From the IMG/VR virus record IMGVR_UViG_3300025652_000218, positions 1 through 36,833 of that record: a DNA stretch of 36,833 nt. One strand, written 5' to 3'. Made by a program: the position numbers and the translations under genes. This DNA is from a virus. The notes under the pieces were generated by a model. The model saw only the letters and a program-made list of their open reading frames with translations. It did no database searches and was not told the DNA's origin. This document shows positions 5,505 to 36,299 of this stretch, in pieces. How positions within the stretch are numbered: position 1 is the first letter of the stretch; every line of letters begins with the position of its first letter.

Positions 5505-6359
5505 TTATTTTGTTACAGGATTTCCAAACATGTCTAGATAAGGATAACTAGTTATAGCTGGTAAAGCAAAGGGGTTAATTCGGGTTGATCCGTCAGGATA
5601 GAGAGTAAAACCTCCACCACCTAATTGATTAGGGTCTATTGGAGAATTACTTCCGTCAGGATAGAGAGTAAAACCTCCACCACCTAATTGATTAGTAGCC
5701 AATGCTGAATTACTTCCGTTAGGAATAGTAAAACCTCCACCACCTAATTGATTAGTAGCCAATGCTGAATTACTTCCGTTTGTTATTGGGGTTTCTCCTT
5801 TGTCTTGAAATAAAGGAACAAAAGTCTCCACACCTTTTACAAGTGCATCTCCTCCTGACTTAATAGATTGTGCAATAGCAGCGTTTCTCGCTTGCTGAGC
5901 ATCTCTAGATGCTAGTTGAGCACCTTCTGCTGTTTTTAAATCTAAAGTAGCTAATTTAGTAGCTATATTTGAATCTTCTTGTGCTGAAAGCTGGTCTAAC
6001 CTTGCTATATCCTGAGACATAGTAGATGCAATCTGTTGTTGAGCTTTATTTTGTCCTGCAACAACTCTACCTGCTGTTGCTGCCGCACCTCTAGAGCTTC
6101 CTTCTCTACCTGCTTCTAATGCCTGAGCACCTGAGCTTAAAGCAGCCTCTCTAGCTAATCTATAAGGTTCTTTAGCAATAGATAGCTGATCCATATAATT
6201 AACGTCTATTTCTTTTTTTGCGTCTGATATAGCCTGAGTAGCTTTAATATCGGCATCTTCTTTTAATCTTTTTTGTTTAGCTGCTTGACCAATAGACATT
6301 CCCATTGTTCCTAAGTTTACTACTACACCTGCTGCTGCTACTGCTGTTGCTACTGCCAT
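5505..6359 (-). CDS. Internal virion protein with Ala-rich N-terminus and LGGGGF tandem repeats, 284 aa
   Basis: The N-terminus (residues 1-30, MAVATAVAAAGVVV...) is Ala/Gly/Val-rich and could insert in or lie on a membrane. Residues ~30-175 are Ala/Gln-rich coiled coil. Residues ~190-257 hold tandem repeats of about 20-21 residues built on NGSNSALATNQLGGGGFT, and the end is aromatic and Pro-rich. This build (hydrophobic start, Ala-rich helix, Gly-rich tail) resembles the small T7-like internal core proteins that go with larger ejection proteins, but I cannot assign it to a named family. It is followed after 11 bases by the 500-residue gene and preceded by the GNAT gene with 1 base between, so it is co-transcribed with both. 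Confidence 0.7.
   Translation of the reverse strand: MAVATAVAAAGVVVNLGTMGMSIGQAAKQKRLKEDADIKATQAISDAKKEIDVNYMDQLSIAKEPYRLAREAALSSGAQALEAGREGSSRGAAATAGRVVAGQNKAQQQIASTMSQDIARLDQLSAQEDSNIATKLATLDLKTAEGAQLASRDAQQARNAAIAQSIKSGGDALVKGVETFVPLFQDKGETPITNGSNSALATNQLGGGGFTIPNGSNSALATNQLGGGGFTLYPDGSNSPIDPNQLGGGGFTLYPDGSTRINPFALPAITSYPYLDMFGNPVTK
5588..5790 (-). repeat. Tandem coding repeat (LGGGGF units)
   Basis: The block whose plus strand begins GTAAAACCTCCACCACC occurs at 5605, 5668 and 5728, giving periods of 63 and 60 bases. The copies are nearly identical over about 45 bases and keep the reading frame, so the encoded repeat number could change by slippage or recombination without breaking the protein. 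The repeat lies in the C-terminal third of the 284-residue protein. Confidence 0.85.
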
Positions 6360-7829: not shown

Positions 7830-10800
7830 TTATGATGAGCATCCGCATCTTGTGTAAGTAATTGTTACCCCTTCTACAATATCTGTAGTCGTAGGAATAG
7901 ACCTTGAACATATAGTTTCAACTCTTCCATTTGAAATAGTACCCTCAGCCTCTAGCCCTGTAGTGCAGTCTAAGTAGTCGTATAACACTACACCTCCACT
8001 GTTGTTTAGTATCTCATACTCTGAGCATAGCTCAGTACAATCATAACCACAACAAGCATCAGCAGCATCTACCGTTGAATGAGATAGTAGAAGTGAACTC
8101 TTGTCCCTTAAATCCCAAATCAAATAAAGATTTTCTCCTACATTTTCCTCTGCAGGCATCATAAAAGTAGCAGACACAAATTCATCTGTTTCAACTGGGT
8201 TTAAGGCTACCGAAGCATTTTCAAGAAGTAACATCATATCTGTAGAGTTATTCTCATAAACCTGAGAAGACCTTAGATACATAAACCTGTTTGTGTTTAC
8301 GTCAAAACTGAAAGAACTATTGCTATTTTTCTCTACAAACAAAGTAATATCTGAATTGTCAGTAGGTACTGAAGAAGCTCCTTGAGGCCCTGTAAACTCA
8401 TCGTATAAACTTAATGTTGGATTCCCTGCGTAGGTTACAAAAGGAACATCCGTTGATGATACTGGTGACTCAACTATTCCGTCAACATAGCTAAATCCTA
8501 ATCTAGTTGGTGTTAATATAGGACTTCCAGGGTTAGGAGAATAAACAATCCATCTTACGTTAATATTGTTAGGGTCTGGGCATCCTGTAACAACCTCTAA
8601 TCCAGTCGCTACACCTGTACTAATTACAGTTATGTCAAACTTAGTTTCTCCAGTTAGACTCTTTGGTATACTTATATTTCCCGATGTAGATACAGGCCCT
8701 GATGTGTAAGTTGTTGAGTTGTAAACAACATTAATGGTTACAGTTCCTACCATTCCAGCAGGAATATTCCATTTCACGTCAGTATATCCAATTATAGTAC
8801 CTACGTTTATGCAGTAGGTGTAATCATTTCCTGATTGAACATTAAAGGTTCTGTAGTCCTCGCAGTCTAAACACTTAACCTCAGCAGGAAGTAGTACATC
8901 GTTTGAAGACAGTACATACTCGTTCATGTAAGGGTCAAACCCTCCTAGCTTCTGAGTGTTAAAATCATTGATGAACAAATCCCTAAACCAAGAACGCATA
9001 CCCTGCTCGGATATTACTTTAACTTGGTCTCCTGCAGCCTCATCTGCACCCTTCATTTGTATCACAGCTCCTCTCTTTGCGTCAGTAAAGAATTTATCGT
9101 ATCCCCACTTAACATAACTCTCAGGGTTATGGCTAATACCATACTCCTCAGTCTTCGTTACTTGCTGACCTAATACTTGAGGAATAGAAGTTAAAGCACT
9201 TCCACCGCCTGCATCAGAAAGAATATTCTTGCCTGCCAGTACATAAGAAATCTTGTCCTCCTGTAGTACTAGTACGTTTGTTTGTTTTCCGTCAAGAATC
9301 TGAATTTTTCCAAAAGAATCCTCTAACGGTTTAAAGTTAAGTAGGCCTAGGTTAAACTCGTTCAGCTTGTTTACATTAGTTTCATCATTATAAACGCCAC
9401 TGTAGGTAAGGTCTGCAAACCTGTGAGCTTCTTTGTAATCCTCTGCAGAGACAGATAAAACCCTGTTTCCTAAGTTAAACTGCTTTCCTGTAATAGAATC
9501 TAAAGCCTTATAACTCTCAGCTCCGTTTCCAAACATATAACAGTTATAGAAATCAGTGTCTATAATCGCTGACTGTAAATTTGTTTGATTTTGAACATTA
9601 CCCTGGTGGAATCCATTTGTTATTGGAAATGATTCGCTTGACTCATAAAATACGTCTGGCAAAGCGTCCAATGGTTGTGTTTCAAATATTAAAGAAGACT
9701 CAGGTAGATATATTTGCAATGAAGCCTGACCGTTAGCCTCTCCATTCTTAGTTGTTGAACACGCATTAGTACCTGTGATTACCAGCTCTAAATATCCTGT
9801 TGAACCTCTGTAGAAATACCAATTATTAGTACAAAGAGAAGGAGCAGCAGGTGATGTTGTATGAATTGCTGGATAGAAAACATTATTAGGTATACATTGA
9901 GAATTTCCGGCAAAACCTGTTCCTCTTACGAAACTGCTTGATATACTATCTCCTACAAACCAATCGTACATATTATTGTAGTCAGCAGTAGAAGTGAATG
10001 TTTCATCATAAGTAAAGCTTCTTTCCTCGCATTTTTTCTTTCCAAACGTACCGTTTCTCTTATACCTAAACTTTATTTTAATTATAGAGTTGATAGGAAT
10101 AGCTATGTCTGTATGAGTAGTTCCGTTAAAAGTACTACATCTCAACTGAGTAAAACAGTAATTATTTTGTCTATTAGCGTTAGTAAAGTTTGAAACAGAA
10201 TGAACGGCAGAAGGAACGAACTGAGCACTAAAGTCATCCGAAGTAATCTTCATATATACCCCTGCTGGAGGTACAACCCCTGTCGTTGTTGTTATGAAGT
10301 TTGATGACTGTGCCTTCTTTTCTAGAACAGTGGCTGTTACGCACTCGTTAATAGCTCCACTAGTGTCAGACTTAACAGTGTACCTGTCTCCCTCCTCTAC
10401 TTTTCTTGCGTTTTCGCCCTCTAACAGAAAATATATGTTATTAGTTCCATCCTGAATCCAATAAAATTGAGCGTAAATTGTTTCGTACCCTTGTTTGTCT
10501 GGCTTTATTAAAAACTTATACCTAGTCGCCCAATATGGTGGCTTTTGTATGCTTGGTATTGTAACCTTAATGCTATTTTTACTGTCTGAATATTCACAAG
10601 GAACATGCTCTGTATTCCTGTTACTTACCAAAGCTGTAGTTGAACGATTAAAATCGTCCATGTAAGCTATTGCTATTTCGTACCCCCTATTGCTATGAAG
10701 ACTTTTTGAGAATCCACCTGTAGAATAAGCTCCTTCTGCTTCATGAACTCCGTAATATTCGTAAGCGTATGCCCCGGTTGGGTTGTTTGCATCAGCAACG

Positions 10801-12458
10801 TATTGAATAGCAGGAAATTTAAAGCTAATAAAATTACTAGAAGGCGTTGAAAATACTTCTATAGGCTGACCGTTTGCCGTTATACCACTTGCATACTTAG
10901 TAAGAGTAGCTAGAATAGGAGAGTTACAGTTATATATATCTGTAAACGTAGTTCCACTACAAGAAGTTGGGTTTGTAGGGTCGTAAACAGGAAGTATGTT
11001 TGATGTAGTACCTACCTTATCTAAAAACTCTGTACTTGAAGCTAAATCATAAACAGATGTATAGCTTCTAGGAAGAGTAAATAGCAGAGATACTTTGAAC
11101 GAGCTGGATGCAGTAATAGGAATTGTTCCAGAACTAAAAACTCGTAAGAAAGTTATGTCAAACGATATAGAACTACCTGCCACCATATAGTTTACACCTG
11201 CACTTGGGTTTAATACGCTTAAATCAAAGTCAACAATTCCTTTATAATAAACAACAGTCCCCGGGGCTGGGTCTATATTATAGTTTGTAAATCTTTTGGT
11301 ATATGGAAAAGTGTAGCCAGTAGAAGTGCTTCCTGTTATTAATTCAGTATAGTACTCTAATTTTAGCTTATTTCCGGATACATCAATCAAGTCGTACCCC
11401 TCTGTGTAGTTACCATAAACAAGTCTATTACTCATAACCGTCTGAGCCTTAGCAAATCTAGGTACATTATCGTAAAGCCTTAATATCTCAGAAGAAGGAA
11501 GTATTGTATAAATCTTACTGTTGTCAAATGTATAAGTCCTAGATTGGTTATCTCCCCATCCATTATCTACTTTGTCCAGCTTCTCTATCACCCTAATTAC
11601 TGAGTCGTCAGCATCCTTAAACAGTAAATCTATACCAACAACCAAATCTCCTCCTGTTTGAAATGTAATGATGGCTGCGTTAAACTTATTCTCCATTCCC
11701 TCATTAAGTACACTCTCTGCACTTAAAAAGAAATCTTTAGGCTCAAACGCAGGTTGTGAAAATTGAGATGTAGCAGAGTATTCATTGTTTGCGTACCTGT
11801 AACGGTATCCAAAGCAGATAAACCTATCCTCCATGTAATTAATGTCATTTCCTATGTCAATAAGACTAACTGAAGGAGATGTAAGCGGTGCTTTCTTGAT
11901 TACAAGTAAAGACTCATCGCTAAATGTATCTACATTTGCAAGAGGAAACGAATAGCTATTATCTACGTCAATCCTTCTAGGAGCGTTGTAGTCATCTGTA
12001 AAGAACAATAGGTTTTCAACCAAAGAAACCCCTGTTATTAAATACTCAGGGTTGAAGTTTAAGGTGGTAATTATACCAGCTCCAATGTTATTTAAAATAC
12101 TTACAACGTGATAGTTTAAGAAGGAAGTCTTAGTATCAAATGATACTATCAAATCAAGTTTTCCACTAGCTCCCACTGTAAATGTTGGGTCATGAACAAA
12201 CCAAAACAGTCTTTCATTTGCTCCGTCTTCAAAAGCTCCAATGCATCTAGCGTTAGCACTCAGTGGAGTACCATCTATATACTTAAGGCTTGTCAACGGA
12301 AGGTTTCCTAATGAGTTCTCTATCGATCCAACATTATTTCCCTCCGTAGAGTTAACCCTTACGTTTAATGCATCAATGTATTCACCGTCCTGCATAAGAC
12401 GTACATCGGTAGACTTATTCATCTTACCCTTGGTAAAGCTTTTAGTTATATTCGCCAT
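7830..12458 (-). CDS. Tail nozzle/muzzle protein (T7 gp12-like/crAss muzzle-like), 1542 aa
   Basis: Very large beta-rich structural protein. The N-terminus (FTKGKMNKSTDVRLMQDGEYIDALN..., then SIENSLGN) is the signature opening I associate with the nozzle/muzzle proteins that close the short tail of marine and crAss-like podoviruses. A region resembling beta-propeller strands follows (residues ~60-200, e.g. ENLLFFTDDYNAPRRIDVD), then long beta-rich segments. The last 77 residues hold eight cysteines (CCGYDC..LC...C...C...RCGCSS), unusual for a cytosolically made virion protein. The gene lies 1 base after the 306-residue neck gene and is followed by small tail genes, matching ring-ring-nozzle order. 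Confidence is high that it is a tail structural protein, lower for the exact equivalence. Confidence 0.8.
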   Translation of the reverse strand: MANITKSFTKGKMNKSTDVRLMQDGEYIDALNVRVNSTEGNNVGSIENSLGNLPLTSLKYIDGTPLSANARCIGAFEDGANERLFWFVHDPTFTVGASGKLDLIVSFDTKTSFLNYHVVSILNNIGAGIITTLNFNPEYLITGVSLVENLLFFTDDYNAPRRIDVDNSYSFPLANVDTFSDESLLVIKKAPLTSPSVSLIDIGNDINYMEDRFICFGYRYRYANNEYSATSQFSQPAFEPKDFFLSAESVLNEGMENKFNAAIITFQTGGDLVVGIDLLFKDADDSVIRVIEKLDKVDNGWGDNQSRTYTFDNSKIYTILPSSEILRLYDNVPRFAKAQTVMSNRLVYGNYTEGYDLIDVSGNKLKLEYYTELITGSTSTGYTFPYTKRFTNYNIDPAPGTVVYYKGIVDFDLSVLNPSAGVNYMVAGSSISFDITFLRVFSSGTIPITASSSFKVSLLFTLPRSYTSVYDLASSTEFLDKVGTTSNILPVYDPTNPTSCSGTTFTDIYNCNSPILATLTKYASGITANGQPIEVFSTPSSNFISFKFPAIQYVADANNPTGAYAYEYYGVHEAEGAYSTGGFSKSLHSNRGYEIAIAYMDDFNRSTTALVSNRNTEHVPCEYSDSKNSIKVTIPSIQKPPYWATRYKFLIKPDKQGYETIYAQFYWIQDGTNNIYFLLEGENARKVEEGDRYTVKSDTSGAINECVTATVLEKKAQSSNFITTTTGVVPPAGVYMKITSDDFSAQFVPSAVHSVSNFTNANRQNNYCFTQLRCSTFNGTTHTDIAIPINSIIKIKFRYKRNGTFGKKKCEERSFTYDETFTSTADYNNMYDWFVGDSISSSFVRGTGFAGNSQCIPNNVFYPAIHTTSPAAPSLCTNNWYFYRGSTGYLELVITGTNACSTTKNGEANGQASLQIYLPESSLIFETQPLDALPDVFYESSESFPITNGFHQGNVQNQTNLQSAIIDTDFYNCYMFGNGAESYKALDSITGKQFNLGNRVLSVSAEDYKEAHRFADLTYSGVYNDETNVNKLNEFNLGLLNFKPLEDSFGKIQILDGKQTNVLVLQEDKISYVLAGKNILSDAGGGSALTSIPQVLGQQVTKTEEYGISHNPESYVKWGYDKFFTDAKRGAVIQMKGADEAAGDQVKVISEQGMRSWFRDLFINDFNTQKLGGFDPYMNEYVLSSNDVLLPAEVKCLDCEDYRTFNVQSGNDYTYCINVGTIIGYTDVKWNIPAGMVGTVTINVVYNSTTYTSGPVSTSGNISIPKSLTGETKFDITVISTGVATGLEVVTGCPDPNNINVRWIVYSPNPGSPILTPTRLGFSYVDGIVESPVSSTDVPFVTYAGNPTLSLYDEFTGPQGASSVPTDNSDITLFVEKNSNSSFSFDVNTNRFMYLRSSQVYENNSTDMMLLLENASVALNPVETDEFVSATFMMPAEENVGENLYLIWDLRDKSSLLLSHSTVDAADACCGYDCTELCSEYEILNNSGGVVLYDYLDCTTGLEAEGTISNGRVETICSRSIPTTTDIVEGVTITYTRCGCSS

Positions 12459-27158: not shown

Positions 27159-28055
27159 TTATCCTATTTTAGTTATTACTACCCTAACTGCTGCTGTAGC
27201 AAGAGCAACCGTAGTTGCCAGAGTGATTGTATTAGTTGTAGTTCTTTCAACACTTAAAAATACTGTTTCAAATGTTGTTGTATTGTAACACTGAACAGAC
27301 ACGTCTCTAGTAGCTAAATTATGAGTAACAACGTATGAAGTTAAAGTACCATTTCCTATATTAGCAGCAAACTCCCTTGTTGCAACCTCAGTATCAACAG
27401 CAGTAGCAAAATCAGTAATCTGTGATGCCGTTATAGCTATAGTCGTACTAGAAGCAGCAGTTATAAGTCCCTTTCCATTCACAGTGAAAGTTCCTACGGA
27501 TGATGCAGTTCCAAAAGAACCTACATTAGCATTAACGGTTGCTAGCGTGCTTGACAACACAACATTCGCAGTTCCATCAAATGAAACGGTAGGTGCTGTC
27601 ATATCTCCAGATATAGAGAAGTCTCTAGCTGTAGCTAAGGCAGTTGCCGTGCTTATATTTCCTGTTATAGAACCAGTTACAGTTAATCCTCCTGTTATTG
27701 TAACAGTACTCCCGTTATCAACTATAGAAGAGTCAACAAATTGAGTTCCTGTATTATCCCACTTTAATATGGCATTGTTTGTAAACGCAGAAGCATTTTT
27801 CAAGCTTATAGTTCCTGATGTACTTATAGGGCCTCCAGTTAACCCCTCTCCTGTCGCTACAGAAGTTACAGTTCCTGACGAACTTCCTATAGCTACCCAA
27901 TTAGCACCGTCATAGTATTTAAGAGCTGTTGAGGCTGTATTAAAAATAAGCTGCCCTTGACCTGATACTACAGGGTCTGATGCTAGGTTTTGAATTTTTA
28001 CGTTCTGTATTTCATTATTCTCTAGCGAAATATTGTTTAGATACTTTATTGCCAT
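27159..28055 (-). CDS. Tail fibre protein, 298 aa
   Basis: Starts MAIKYLNNISLENNEIQNVKIQNLASDP, followed by a segment GQLIFNTASTALKYYDGANWVAIG typical of fibres that begin with a short baseplate/neck-binding motif. The middle is Thr/Ser/Gly/Ala-rich repetitive beta sequence (e.g. TGGLTVTGSITGNISTATALATA). The C-terminal ~60 residues (TSYVVTHNLATRDVSVQCYNTTTFETVFLSVERTTTN...) resemble the C-terminal end of the 238-residue neighbour (both have a V/I-x-H-x-L...VSV core), a common phage tail-fibre C-terminal domain. It ends 1 base before the next fibre gene. Confidence 0.65.
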   Translation of the reverse strand: MAIKYLNNISLENNEIQNVKIQNLASDPVVSGQGQLIFNTASTALKYYDGANWVAIGSSSGTVTSVATGEGLTGGPISTSGTISLKNASAFTNNAILKWDNTGTQFVDSSIVDNGSTVTITGGLTVTGSITGNISTATALATARDFSISGDMTAPTVSFDGTANVVLSSTLATVNANVGSFGTASSVGTFTVNGKGLITAASSTTIAITASQITDFATAVDTEVATREFAANIGNGTLTSYVVTHNLATRDVSVQCYNTTTFETVFLSVERTTTNTITLATTVALATAAVRVVITKIG

Positions 28056-32058: not shown

Positions 32059-32514
32059 ATGATAGATTACAAAGATAGGCCTGAAGAATACGACTATTTA
32101 AAATACTACACAGTAGTACACAGGTATTTTAGGAAAAAATATGAACTAACGAGAGAAGAACTAGATTTAATTCTTTTTCTTATGTCAGAACGTATTTTTA
32201 ACAAGAGAAAATTCCAAGAATTTAACGAATTACTGATGTGGGACAGGAAAAGATTCGATAATATGCTGGATAACGGATGGATATCCATATTTAGAGCCCC
32301 GAGTGACGGAATAAGTGCAAGATACGAGCTGTCTTATAAGGCTAGACGAATGGTGCGTCAGCTATATAAAACTATTATAAACAAAGAAATCCCTCAGTTG
32401 CCTGAGAGAAATCCAATGTTTAAAAAAGAAGTAGGTTTTTCAGATAAGGTTTACAGAAACTTTATTAAAAAAATGAATAAAGAGACTAAAACAATCCGTA
32501 GGAAGTCTAAATAA
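32059..32514 (+). CDS. Winged-helix (MarR-like) DNA-binding protein candidate, 151 aa
   Basis: The only forward gene inside the leftward virion region. The protein is helical with a wHTH-like order: YLKYYTVVHRYFRKKYELTREELDLILFLMSERIFNKRKFQEFNELL (helices), then WDRKRFDNMLDNGWISIFR (recognition helix and wing, with a loop APSDGISARYELSYKARRMVRQLYKTI). I recall such proteins in marine Bacteroidota phages labelled helix-turn-helix. It converges on groES, overlapping its stop by 8 bases (32507-32514). A regulator of virion or chaperonin genes is plausible; not shown. Confidence 0.55.
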   Translation: MIDYKDRPEEYDYLKYYTVVHRYFRKKYELTREELDLILFLMSERIFNKRKFQEFNELLMWDRKRFDNMLDNGWISIFRAPSDGISARYELSYKARRMVRQLYKTIINKEIPQLPERNPMFKKEVGFSDKVYRNFIKKMNKETKTIRRKSK

Positions 32515-32764
32515 CTACCACCACATTCCCCTCCTGTATGATAGTATACGATTCATCGTTTATCATCATCGTGAACCCAGAGTTTTTATCGTAATATATA
32601 ACATCTTCTGATTTTATTACGTTAACATCTGATCCAGGTTCAATAACCCTACCTTTTTTATACCTCATCGCAGATACATCATCCGCAGATAACAACAATC
32701 CAGAGGAGGTTTCTATTTCCTCCTCTATAGTTTTTATTACAATATACTTTCCTATTGGTTTCAT
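32507..32764 (-). CDS. groES: GroES co-chaperonin, short roofless type, 85 aa
   Basis: I take the ATG at 32764 (MKPIGKYIVIKTIEEE), matching the GroES start; the frame extends 13 codons upstream to another start. Residues ~16-33 look like the mobile loop, with hydrophobic LLL at 23-25 in place of E. coli IVL. The second half (SEDVIYYDKNSGFTMMINDESYTIIQEGNVVVVI) follows GroES well. Between G44 and I50 only about five residues remain where E. coli has the roof hairpin, so the dome roof is missing, as in T4 gp31. Overlaps the preceding gene by 4 bases (ATGA) and the forward gene by 8. It would cap the phage GroEL ring. Confidence 0.75.
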   Translation of the reverse strand: MKPIGKYIVIKTIEEEIETSSGLLLSADDVSAMRYKKGRVIEPGSDVNVIKSEDVIYYDKNSGFTMMINDESYTIIQEGNVVVVI

Positions 32765-32973
32765 ATTACATTCATTATTATAGGAGCATACGCCCCAATA
32801 CATTTTTTTAATATATATCTATTCAGATAATCTACAGACTCATTGTACATCATGCCATTCTTCATGAGGGTCTCTACTATTCTATCGAACGAGTAAACAA
32901 ACTTACCGTTGTTTTCGTCAAATCCAATTATAGAATCGTCAAACCCCTCTATTTTTACAAAATTTACTTGCAT
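32761..32973 (-). CDS. Small conserved protein between groEL and groES, 70 aa
   Basis: MQVNFVKIEGFDDSIIGFDENNGKFVYSFDRIVETLMKN, then MMYNESVDYLNRYILKKCIGAYAPIIMNVI. I associate the pattern G.D..IIG.D.....VYS..R.VE.LM...MxYxExxxYLxxxIxGAY with a small conserved phage protein of unknown function that also turns up in large phages. It lies between groEL (3-base gap) and groES (4-base ATGA overlap), so it is co-expressed with the chaperonin. Confidence 0.65.
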   Translation of the reverse strand: MQVNFVKIEGFDDSIIGFDENNGKFVYSFDRIVETLMKNGMMYNESVDYLNRYILKKCIGAYAPIIMNVI

Positions 32974-32976
32974 ACC

Positions 32977-34554
32977 TTATGAATCTTCAAGACTTCTGGC
33001 CATAGTTATTATAGCATTAGTGGATAAAATCGTAACTGCCACAGAAACAGCATTTTGCAATGCGTTCTTAGTTACTTTGGTCGGGTCAATAATCCCCATC
33101 TCGTACATATCTCCGTACTCGTGGTTCTTTACATCGTACCCTAAACCCGAAGGGTTTGATTTTTTTCCGTAAACATCATTGTAATCTAGTCCGGCATTTT
33201 CTAAAATCTGTTTAATCGGAGACTGCAGAGCAATTCTTAACATTTGTTCAGCTACATTGTCGCTTCCTTCAAATCTTTTCGATAATATATCAAGAGCGTA
33301 ACCTCCACCAGGCAAAATTCCTTCCTCCAGTGCTGATCTCGTGGCGCAAACCGCATCATCAACCCTATCATAAAGCTCCTTCTGCTCTAAATCCGTGTTA
33401 CCTCCAACATATATTACACCTATACCACCAGTCAATGACGCAATCCTAGATAAAATAAAATCTTTATCCGCCTTTTTCTTGGACTCCTTGGCCGCATCCT
33501 TTAGCTGAGATACTCTTTCTTCTATATCCGCACCGTTCTCTTCGTCTTTTATTAGTATAGTCGCTGATTTCTCAACCACAATCTTCTTCGCAAAACCTAA
33601 ATTCTCTGGTGTTATCAAACTTAAATCATCTCCTGTGCTCTGTGAGAAATATTTCGCACCAACCGATAACGCAATATCCTGCATCAACTCGTGCTGCTTG
33701 TACCCAAACGATGGCGGCTGTATTACACAAACCTTTAATCCTCGCTTCATTACATTCGCAGCCAAGGTGTTTATTACATTGGACGAACATTCCGCTATTA
33801 TCAACAGCCTGTCGTCATTCGCAATAACTGGTTTCAATATGTTTTCTATCGATAATATGTTGCTAATCTCCGTGTCGGCAACTAATACCTTCACATTCTC
33901 CAACACACACTCGTCTCTTTTAAAATCATTGATAAATAGATGTGACGAATAACCTCTGTCAATCTTTATTCCTGTCGTAGTTTCAAAATGAGTATCAGAC
34001 GTGTGCGACTTTTCAACGGTTACTATACCATTCTCGCCAACCTCATTGTATACTGACGCTATAATTTCACCTATCTCCGGCTCGTTATTCGCAGATATCG
34101 TGGCAATGTCTCGGAGCTTATCCCCGGTTACATCACGACTCATATCCTTCAGCTCTTCAATCACCTCTTCAGTTCTCGAAACCAACTCACGTAACGTGGC
34201 AGTCTTATCTTTCGTGATTAAATCAAACCCCGATGTCGCTAACGCCTCAGTTAACACTATCGATGTCGTAGTTCCATCACCTGCAGATGTCGCAGTCCTA
34301 TCCGCAGCCTCCTTCATCATCCTAACCGCAAGGTTCTCCACTGGATCCATCAGGTCAATCGATTTCGCAACCGTTACCCCATCCTTTGTTACAGTAATTC
34401 CGTGTGTATGATTCGGTGACTCTATTAATACAGTCTGGCCGGAAGGCCCTAACGTAGATTTTACAGCTTTAGACATCTGCTGTATCCCGTTAATTAATTT
34501 TTCCCTAGCATCCTTATCGAATACTAAATTCTTTGGTGTGTATCCACTGCTCAT
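32977..34554 (-). CDS. groEL: GroEL-type chaperonin (phage-encoded), 525 aa
   Basis: Clear group I chaperonin. The nucleotide site is intact: TLGPSGQ at 34-40, D58 (TKDG, E. coli D52), D93 in AGDGTTTS (D87), GGG in the LPGGG motif and D400 in RVDDAVCATR (D398). The C-terminal GGM tail is absent, and length is 525 against ~548 for E. coli. In the apical groove (E. coli numbering) Y199, S201, F204 and L237 are kept, but Y203 is Leu, L234 is Glu, V263 and V264 are Ala and L259 is Ile. A two-residue insertion lies near the inter-ring loop (E. coli 105-109), and E434 is not kept; R452/E461 appear as Lys/Asp. Base composition is visibly G+C-richer in places (34081-34140 and 33661-33720 are about half G+C by my count). 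It probably folds virion protein. Confidence 0.95.
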   Translation of the reverse strand: MSSGYTPKNLVFDKDAREKLINGIQQMSKAVKSTLGPSGQTVLIESPNHTHGITVTKDGVTVAKSIDLMDPVENLAVRMMKEAADRTATSAGDGTTTSIVLTEALATSGFDLITKDKTATLRELVSRTEEVIEELKDMSRDVTGDKLRDIATISANNEPEIGEIIASVYNEVGENGIVTVEKSHTSDTHFETTTGIKIDRGYSSHLFINDFKRDECVLENVKVLVADTEISNILSIENILKPVIANDDRLLIIAECSSNVINTLAANVMKRGLKVCVIQPPSFGYKQHELMQDIALSVGAKYFSQSTGDDLSLITPENLGFAKKIVVEKSATILIKDEENGADIEERVSQLKDAAKESKKKADKDFILSRIASLTGGIGVIYVGGNTDLEQKELYDRVDDAVCATRSALEEGILPGGGYALDILSKRFEGSDNVAEQMLRIALQSPIKQILENAGLDYNDVYGKKSNPSGLGYDVKNHEYGDMYEMGIIDPTKVTKNALQNAVSVAVTILSTNAIITMARSLEDS

Positions 34555-34925: not shown

Positions 34926-35096
34926 TTATCCTATTTTTTTTACCGTGTACACAGAACCATTAACGGAGTTCCTCCTGAAAATATCAGCGAACCTATCCGC
35001 ATCATCCTTCTTAACAAACTCCATCGGAATCCCTTCCTCATCATTCACTAAAAAAGTGTGTTTTACGTTCCTAGTCTTCTTTAAAATTACATACAT
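34926..35096 (-). CDS. Small promoter-proximal protein, 56 aa
   Basis: ATG at 35096, TAA at 34926-34928. MYVILKKTRNVKHTFLVNDEEGIPMEF, then VKKDDADRFADIFRRNSVNGSVYTVKKIG. A small beta-alpha-beta-like domain of the kind seen in short phage proteins of unknown role. It is the first gene of the leftward operon, with a full promoter 25 bases upstream, so it is likely translated from the start of that transcript. Confidence 0.65.
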   Translation of the reverse strand: MYVILKKTRNVKHTFLVNDEEGIPMEFVKKDDADRFADIFRRNSVNGSVYTVKKIG

Positions 35097-35121
35097 ACTA
35101 TCAATAAAGTTTAGTGATGTG

Positions 35122-35152
35122 CAAAGCTACAATAATAATTTATAATACCAAA
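35122..35152 (-). promoter_or_regulatory. Complete Bacteroidota-type promoter for the leftward chaperonin operon
   Basis: On the minus strand: TTTG (35149-35152) as -33, a 19-base spacer, then TAGCTTTG (35122-35129) as -7. This equals the Bacteroidota vegetative sigma consensus TTTG-N19-TAnnTTTG. The ATG at 35096 lies 25 bases downstream, leaving a leader of roughly 18 bases. This is the only element in the window with both boxes. Confidence 0.75.
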
Positions 35153-35474
35153 AACAATACAAAAGTGTCAAGTGTTGATTTTTTGTCTCTATATAGGGGG
35201 TAAGGGAAAACAATAAACTATAAAAAACTCTACTGTATATTTTTGGTTAAAAAGTAACACTTTAACACTAACCCTTATAAACCCTAGAAAAAAGCAACAT
35301 TTTCTTAACACTGAAGTGTCATAGTTCAACACTTATGCGAGATATATGTAGTTTTTGGGTTACCACCATAAATTACAAAAAACTTTTAAAAAAGAAAACC
35401 GATCTTTTTTTCGGGGGTGGGGTCACTCCTTAACATTTTTTCTTGTATTTTTTTGGCTTTTAGTGTTGACACGT

Positions 35475-35504
35475 TAGCCGAACGTAGTCGTTTACATTCG
35501 GCTA
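35475..35504. other. Strong hairpin in the control region
   Basis: TAGCCGAA (35475-35482) pairs perfectly with TTCGGCTA (35497-35504). Inside, after a 1x1 mismatch, GTA pairs with TAC around a 6-base loop. Neither strand has a T-run after it, so it is not a standard terminator. It stands out in an A/T-rich tract, next to an AGTGTT copy (35462). Confidence 0.7.
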
Positions 35505-35536
35505 TATCTTCCTTATTCTTGTATCTTATATACTTA

Positions 35537-35544
35537 TATCTTTG
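35537..35544 (+). promoter_or_regulatory. Weak TAnnTTTG -7 element facing right
   Basis: Plus strand TATCTTTG. TTTG is absent at the -33 position. The first rightward ORF is more than 330 bases downstream, so it would imply a long leader or a non-coding transcript. Weak. Confidence 0.25.
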
Positions 35545-35880
35545 CGTCCTTTCTTTCTTTCTTTTGGTATGGTCTAAATTAATACTACAAGAAAATAAAT
35601 ACTATTAACACGTTTATAGATCTGAGGTAATAACCGTCCACAAAAAAAGATTCAAAAATAAATAAAAAACCTTTTGGAGTTAATAACTTATAACTCAATC
35701 AATTATACAATCAATTACTTAATTATATATATATAGACTAAATTATATATGAATTATATTAGGATTATCAATAAATTATATTACCTTTATCCAAGCGCAA
35801 ACGGAAAACGTCCAAAATTAACATAAAACGCTATTAATCAATAGATTAACTTAATAACACTACTTAAAACACTGAAAGCC

Positions 35881-36111
35881 ATGATAATAGAAATTAAAGC
35901 AAAAAATAAACATATACCTATTGAGTCATTAGGTAATTTGAATAGGACAAAAAATTTAGTACGTAAAAACGAAGCTAAACAAAAAATTGATAATACATAT
36001 AGTAATTTATACGACAAAAAAATTGAATTCAAAGCAAAGCGTAACAATGACAGAAAACAAAAGCGTAAAAACGCCTATAATTTGAGAGCTACAAAAAGGG
36101 GATTGATATAA
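35881..36111 (+). CDS. Small basic protein, 76 aa
   Basis: MIIEIKAKNKHIPIESLGNLNRTKNLVRKNEAKQKIDN, then TYSNLYDKKIEFKAKRNNDRKQKRKNAYNLRATKRGLI. Lys/Asn/Arg-rich, helical, no known motif. Start is preceded by AACACTGAAAGCC; GAAAG is only a mild Shine-Dalgarno-like match. First gene of the rightward side and next to the iteron-like region, so nucleic-acid binding is a fair guess but unsupported. The reverse-strand ORF over it looks like a shadow. Confidence 0.55.
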   Translation: MIIEIKAKNKHIPIESLGNLNRTKNLVRKNEAKQKIDNTYSNLYDKKIEFKAKRNNDRKQKRKNAYNLRATKRGLI

Positions 36112-36131
36112 TATAGAATACTACTTATTGG

Positions 36132-36148
36132 ATGCGATTAAATCGCAT
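36132..36148. other. Perfect hairpin between the two rightward genes
   Basis: ATGCGAT / ATCGCAT stem of seven pairs around TAA. No T-run follows on the plus strand, so a terminator is unlikely; it may affect mRNA ends or act as a binding site. The 188-base gap (36112-36299) also has a perfect 12-base palindrome TCTATATATAGA at 36233-36244 and a possible promoter (TTG at 36225-36227, 17 bases, TAGGTTTA at 36245-36252). Confidence 0.5.
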
Positions 36149-36299
36149 AGTTTAGAGCCTTAAACTTAAAAACAAGGGATTAACAAAGACAATTATTAAT
36201 TGTGCAAATATCAAAATTTTGGTATTGGTCTGTCTATATATAGATAGGTTTAGGTTCTTGAAATGCTCAAACAATTAACAATTTAAAAAACAAAACAAG

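Follow-up and report, generated by a model that had tools for sequence, protein, structure and literature searches.

A gene-free region in a 36,833-nucleotide stretch of viral DNA (IMG/VR virus record IMGVR_UViG_3300025652_000218; hereafter, the window) probably represents, in this phage, a conserved cis element at which a large group of phages starts DNA replication. Arrays of short repeats flanking A/T-rich DNA recur at fixed places in related genomes, where they are conserved in position, orientation, spacing and composition. As judged from sequence comparison, the best reading of these arrays is that they are iteron-type replication origins, two to a genome, in an abundant group of phages whose hosts are probably Bacteroidetes. 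In the open-licence literature, we found no paper on these arrays.

A local hexamer cluster in a gene-free region

The window is a linear contig that ends before any replication gene. Its structural genes run leftward up to position 35096 and the first rightward gene begins at 35881; in the 784 bp between these two gene starts (35097-35880), no convincing gene was found. Counting both strands, this stretch holds eight AACACT and two GACACT sites. The first-pass annotation had described eight hexamers plus two AGTGTC variants, in both orientations, in a gene-free location between leftward and rightward transcription, and both the number and the setting are borne out: exact AACACT/AGTGTT copies begin at 35171 (minus strand), 35256, 35264, 35307, 35328, 35462 (minus strand), 35856 and 35868, and the AGTGTC variants at 35164 and 35315.

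The density is local. Across the whole window, the count that the same annotation had proposed as a check gave 32 AACACT against 27.5 expected, that is, no enrichment. In 2000 dinucleotide shuffles of 35097-35880, the hexamer occurred 0.74 times on average and at most 5 times, compared with the 8 copies observed, and 0.1% of the shuffles contained 8 copies of some hexamer having two or more G/C.

Anatomy of the window arrays

The hexamers had been described as one array next to an A/T tract; both components exist, but they form two modules rather than one, array A (35164-35333) and array B (35703-35873). The features of the region are as follows.

35122-35152, minus strand: Bacteroidetes-type leftward promoter TTTG-N19-TAGCTTTG, read from the sequence
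35164-35176, minus strand: minus-strand pair of array A, AGTGTC (35164-35169) and AGTGTT (35171-35176)
35177-35250: A/T-rich gap of array A, separating the minus-strand pair from the direct pair, 73% A+T
35256-35269, plus strand: direct pair of array A, AACACTttAACACT, spacing 8 bp
35296-35301, plus strand: weaker site AACATT, also found as AACAT in relative L004
35307-35320: dyad of array A, AACACTgaAGTGTC (in L004, AACATTgaAATGTT)
35328-35333, plus strand: last site of array A
35462-35467, minus strand: isolated AGTGTT
35475-35504: inverted repeat TAGCCGAA-N14-TTCGGCTA, with CGTTTACATT in the loop
35703-35782: A/T tract of array B, lowest in stability of all 80-bp stretches of the contig
35709-35721 and 35766-35778: IHF-consensus matches inside this tract
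35818-35825, plus strand: array B site TTAACATA
35836-35848, plus strand: array B IHF-consensus match AATCAATAGATTA
35856-35873, plus strand: two AACACT of array B, 12 bp apart (11 bp in array 2 of the family, see below)

The leftward promoter, with its -33 element at 35149-35152 and its -7 element at 35122-35129, serves the operon of a 56-aa gene and groEL; the -7 consensus of Bacteroidetes promoters is TAnnTTTG (PMC9723704). The two minus-strand sites of array A, 7 bp apart, lie directly upstream of this promoter and abut its -33 element. Array B contains three of the ten matches of the contig to the IHF consensus used here (PMC8421141). Among these, AATCAATAGATTA is located 16 bp past the AACA core, compared with 14-15 bp in array 2 of the family, and the AACACT pair stands immediately upstream of the ATG at 35881.

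Several other features of this neighborhood deserve mention. The stem sequence of the inverted repeat at 35475-35504 is changed in L004 and still pairs, a compensatory change. Inverted repeats with a CGTTTACATTCGG core occur in the window at this place, in L004 around 1420-1465, in L038 at 11427-11452 and in L034 at 5970-6055, and a perfect TTATCCG-TTTACATT-CGGATAA version is present in a flavobacterial prophage. Considered as a possible origin hairpin and set aside, CGTTTACATTCGG has 27 viral and 5 bacterial matches, the latter at chance level. The near-identical relative L003 differs from the window almost exclusively in two short clusters, 35546-35585 and 35876-36196, and L002 differs at 35614-35622; these differences leave the array sites intact and may reflect recombination or contig-end errors. 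Farther to the left, the window encodes GroES and GroEL (32507-34554), and a small phrog_17028 gene, a possible regulator, is inverted within the late block beside groES (32059-32514, plus strand); this gene is kept in L004, MW202828, G013, G016, Panino and elemo phages.

A close relative changes the sites and keeps the layout

L004 shares with the window the 56-aa gene (77% identity) and groEL (68%), and CAAAGCTA of the leftward promoter is kept. Upstream of these genes, L004 carries an array with the spacings of the window: 8 bp within the direct pair, 43 bp from the direct pair to the dyad and 21 bp from the dyad to the last site. The sites themselves read AACATA/AACATT, with ATTAACATATTAACATA replacing the GTAACACTTTAACACT of the window and AACATTgaAATGTT replacing AACACTgaAGTGTC. 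Thus, the array sites switch together between the two phages, AACACT in the window versus AACAT in L004, under a constant layout. Because the sites co-change while the spacing stays, this comparison indicates that a single trans-acting factor reads the array A sites. It follows that the absence of the hexamer from close relatives, which the first-pass annotation would have taken as refutation, is a misleading sign: both L004 and the more distant MW202828 replace the hexamer and keep the geometry of the array.

Two arrays per genome in a wider phage family

The portal and terminase proteins of the window match a lineage of Flavobacterium, Cellulophaga and Maribacter phages. The best match, MW202828.1, is a complete circular 60,850-bp podophage with a portal protein 74% identical to that of the window. 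In this genome, array 1, built from the motif (C/T)GACATA, adjoins groEL on its upstream side in the layout of the window, and the counterpart of the window minus-strand pair is at 42621/42630; five of the seven genomic copies of TCGACATA fall within 170 bp there. A second array with this layout and motif lies directly upstream of the primase-helicase gene. G013 and G016 also carry both arrays, and in each of these phages the two arrays share a motif particular to that phage.

A search with the primase-helicase yielded at least 547 matches, of which 80 loci were taken; 73 of these had enough upstream sequence. In most of the 73 loci, array 2 shows the same order: a terminator, a minus-strand pair, an A/T segment, a direct pair, an IHF consensus, further sites and the ATG. 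We built a profile from 68 of these primase-side arrays, with MW202828 and G013 held out. In each of the two held-out genomes, the profile gave two strong matches, which are the two arrays, and no significant match was found elsewhere in either. It also detected array 1 in all 30 groEL loci, in a single orientation throughout, including those in which a gene separates the array from groEL. Matches in 79 of the 80 primase loci are not independent, most of these loci being the training set. Array 1 points away from groEL and array 2 points toward the primase gene; because of this difference, array orientation is not tied to transcription.

Sequence profiles gave no significant match to the arrays of the window and L004, but did match array 1 of G016 and the array of L098, which is built from AACACT. 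The window array lies upstream of the groEL gene/operon, with the minus-strand pair on the groEL side and the direct pair beyond. We accordingly place the window in the family, provisionally, by position, orientation, geometry and spacing, motif class and composition (the A/T tract). L004 serves as the bridge between the window and the family, and L098 as an instance of a recognized AACACT array. Two other routes to relatives were abandoned: phages sharing a 99-aa membrane-protein gene (L005-L014) were mostly unrelated and lacked such a region, and 7-mer clustering in distant phages returned mostly coding or low-complexity repeats.

Geometry, stability and promoters

The sites are clustered short repeats in a defined register, as in iteron-type origins. 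Within the direct pair, the spacing is 8 bp in the window and in L004; in the family, 66 of 71 cases have the modal 9 bp. An IHF consensus is present in 53 of 73 array 2 regions, compared with 1.6 expected, and its distance from the core of the second site is 14/15 bp in array 2 and 25/26 bp in array 1. The second and third sites are separated by 30, 41 or 51-53 bp; a fourth site mostly follows 11 bp further. These spacings shift by helical turns, which would suit an ordered nucleoprotein complex.

An A/T-rich candidate unwinding element accompanies the repeats, and the least stable tract of the window is the one in array B. The counterparts of the array A gap in relatives have a mean of 77-83% A+T. 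Ranked by instability within its contig, array 2 of MW202828 comes first, arrays 2 and 1 of G013 come first and second, and array 1 of G016 comes first.

The TAnnTTTG promoter directed toward groEL is found at array 1 in 30 of 30 loci; in array 2, it occurs in 6 of 73 against 9.3 expected, not above chance. Array 2 is embedded in the replication module, between the genes for an SSB-like protein and the primase-helicase. In the complete MW202828 genome, the GC skew reaches its minimum at 43.5 kb, at a distance of 0.7 kb from array 1, a position also expected because gene direction switches there. Elsewhere in this genome (43745-55154; L083), there are fourteen copies of a 16-bp palindrome, GTGTCGTTAACGACAC; several of them immediately precede early genes, in the context ACACAAAAATCAACACTATCATGG, which is suggestive of an operator or promoter element for these genes.

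Candidate initiators

The binders suggested by the first-pass annotation, a forward winged-helix protein and a 76-residue basic protein, gained no support. In the relatives, two other genes lie near the arrays, in a region that the window contig lacks. One encodes a DnaA-domain-IV-like protein of 100 aa that matches Pfam Bac_DnaA_C and a solved DnaA structure; in MW202828, it is located at 51033-51335, 2-3 kb upstream of the primase gene, and it is found nearby in 63 primase loci, a few of these matches being partial or weak. The other encodes the primase-helicase, with BT4734-like_N, PriCT_1 and DUF5906 domains, which by analogy with the alpha protein of P4 is an equal candidate for binding the sites. 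No alignment column of the DnaA-like residues tracked the A/G change in the motif. At the far end of the early region, MW202828 encodes a second protein with a DnaA domain IV match (60107-60676) and G013 a weak homologue (27319-27867). In the elemo phage L086, tandem TTACAC with a period of 6 is present at 8895-8931, inside a gene annotated as a replication protein.

A probable replication origin as the best explanation

We infer from these patterns an origin role for the arrays, binding of an IHF-like protein and the likely identity of the initiator. A phage-encoded initiator, either the DnaA-domain-IV-like protein or the primase-helicase itself, would bind the short sites (AACACT in the window; AACAT, GACAT and GTACA in relatives), which flank the A/T-rich segment on either side in helical register. 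A host protein of the IHF/HU type would bend the DNA between the sites, the A/T segment would melt, and the phage primase-helicase would be loaded, in relatives at the two arrays upstream of groEL and of the primase-helicase gene. A more specific version, in which a stand-alone DnaA domain IV protein and the primase-helicase jointly open two IHF-bent direct-repeat iteron origins about 11 kb apart, with sites drifting in concert across both arrays from phage to phage, is no more than tentative.

The first-pass annotation had proposed either an origin or a multi-site operator; both readings still stand, and the comparison of relatives favors the origin. It does so because array orientation relative to the neighboring gene is opposite at the two places and constant at each; because host-type promoters accompany array 1 throughout and array 2 not above chance; because genes can intervene between the array and groEL; because, in several contigs, one of them a complete genome, no DNA is less stable than the arrays; because array 2 lies within the replication module; and because of the nearby skew minimum in MW202828, with the switch in gene direction noted above. 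Counting against an origin are the abutment of the window minus-strand pair on the -33 element, as would befit an operator, the failure of sequence profiles to detect the window arrays, the end of the window contig ahead of any replication gene, the lack of a DnaA-like alignment column that follows the motif change, and the absence of classical DnaA boxes: an oriC of that type was rejected, given that the region lacks TTWTNCACA boxes.

The main rival is a multi-site operator or phage-specific promoter, with one phage regulator acting on both arrays to switch the groEL/late and primase operons. We regard this as rather unlikely, although the arrays at both places have a terminator on one side and a gene start on the other, the window pair sits just upstream of the -33 element of a good leftward promoter, and elemo phages show TTAACACT beside leftward promoters (in the divergent region of L086, 18729-19027, such sites are just upstream of two leftward TTTG/ATTG-N19-TATATTTG promoters). 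The primase gene otherwise has no recognized promoter, and array 2 could contain one of a phage type. An operator would not require an A/T segment of about 70 bp with the lowest stability in the genome, nor does it fit the opposite orientations of the two arrays relative to their genes. In the relatives, placement and orientation relative to the promoter are not fixed: the array and the groEL promoter lie at varying distances from each other, in some cases with genes between them.

It is less probable still that the arrays act in partition, incompatibility or copy control, as iterons for titration or handcuffing, and that no more than one of the two is an origin. Two iteron sets per genome have parallels in P1 (oriR and incA) and P4 (ori and crr); yet both arrays here have a full A/T segment and, in most phages, an IHF-like site, and no par gene was found beside them. 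Chance alone might have gathered an A/T-rich hexamer in gene-free DNA of one phage, and this would agree with the lack of enrichment over the whole window and with the profiles missing its arrays, but it is very improbable in view of the shuffle test and the co-changed, spacing-conserved sites in L004.

Relation to known replicons and implications

The putative origins resemble several known systems. The pri-rep-ori origins of PICI/SaPI elements have two iteron sets around an A/T-rich region (PMC6092414, where P4 replicons are also referenced). The phages described here differ in having two complete arrays per genome with an embedded IHF consensus and a separate DnaA-domain-IV-like protein, and in being full-size phages of about 60 kb. 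The satellite phage P4, with its two separate iteron regions, ori and crr, and its alpha primase-helicase, is similar in combining such regions with a primase-helicase, but the domains, motif and genome are different, and binding by the primase-helicase is only a candidate function here. In lambda-type origins, iterons lie beside an A/T-rich element inside gene O, near replication genes; the likeness is in this juxtaposition, whereas the arrays here are intergenic and duplicated, and their sites flank the A/T segment on either side. Bacterial oriC shares the IHF consensus, an unwinding element and an encoded relative of DnaA domain IV; here, in contrast, there are no DnaA boxes, the sites read (G/A/T)ACA(C/T), and the phage protein has no ATPase domain.

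If the origin reading is correct, it would provide a predicted origin pair for hundreds of environmental phages, given the at least 547 relatives of the primase, and a compact initiation set with natural variation of the binding motif. It would also represent a use of the DnaA DNA-binding domain without its ATPase, and the origins of uncultured phage genomes would become locatable from sequence.
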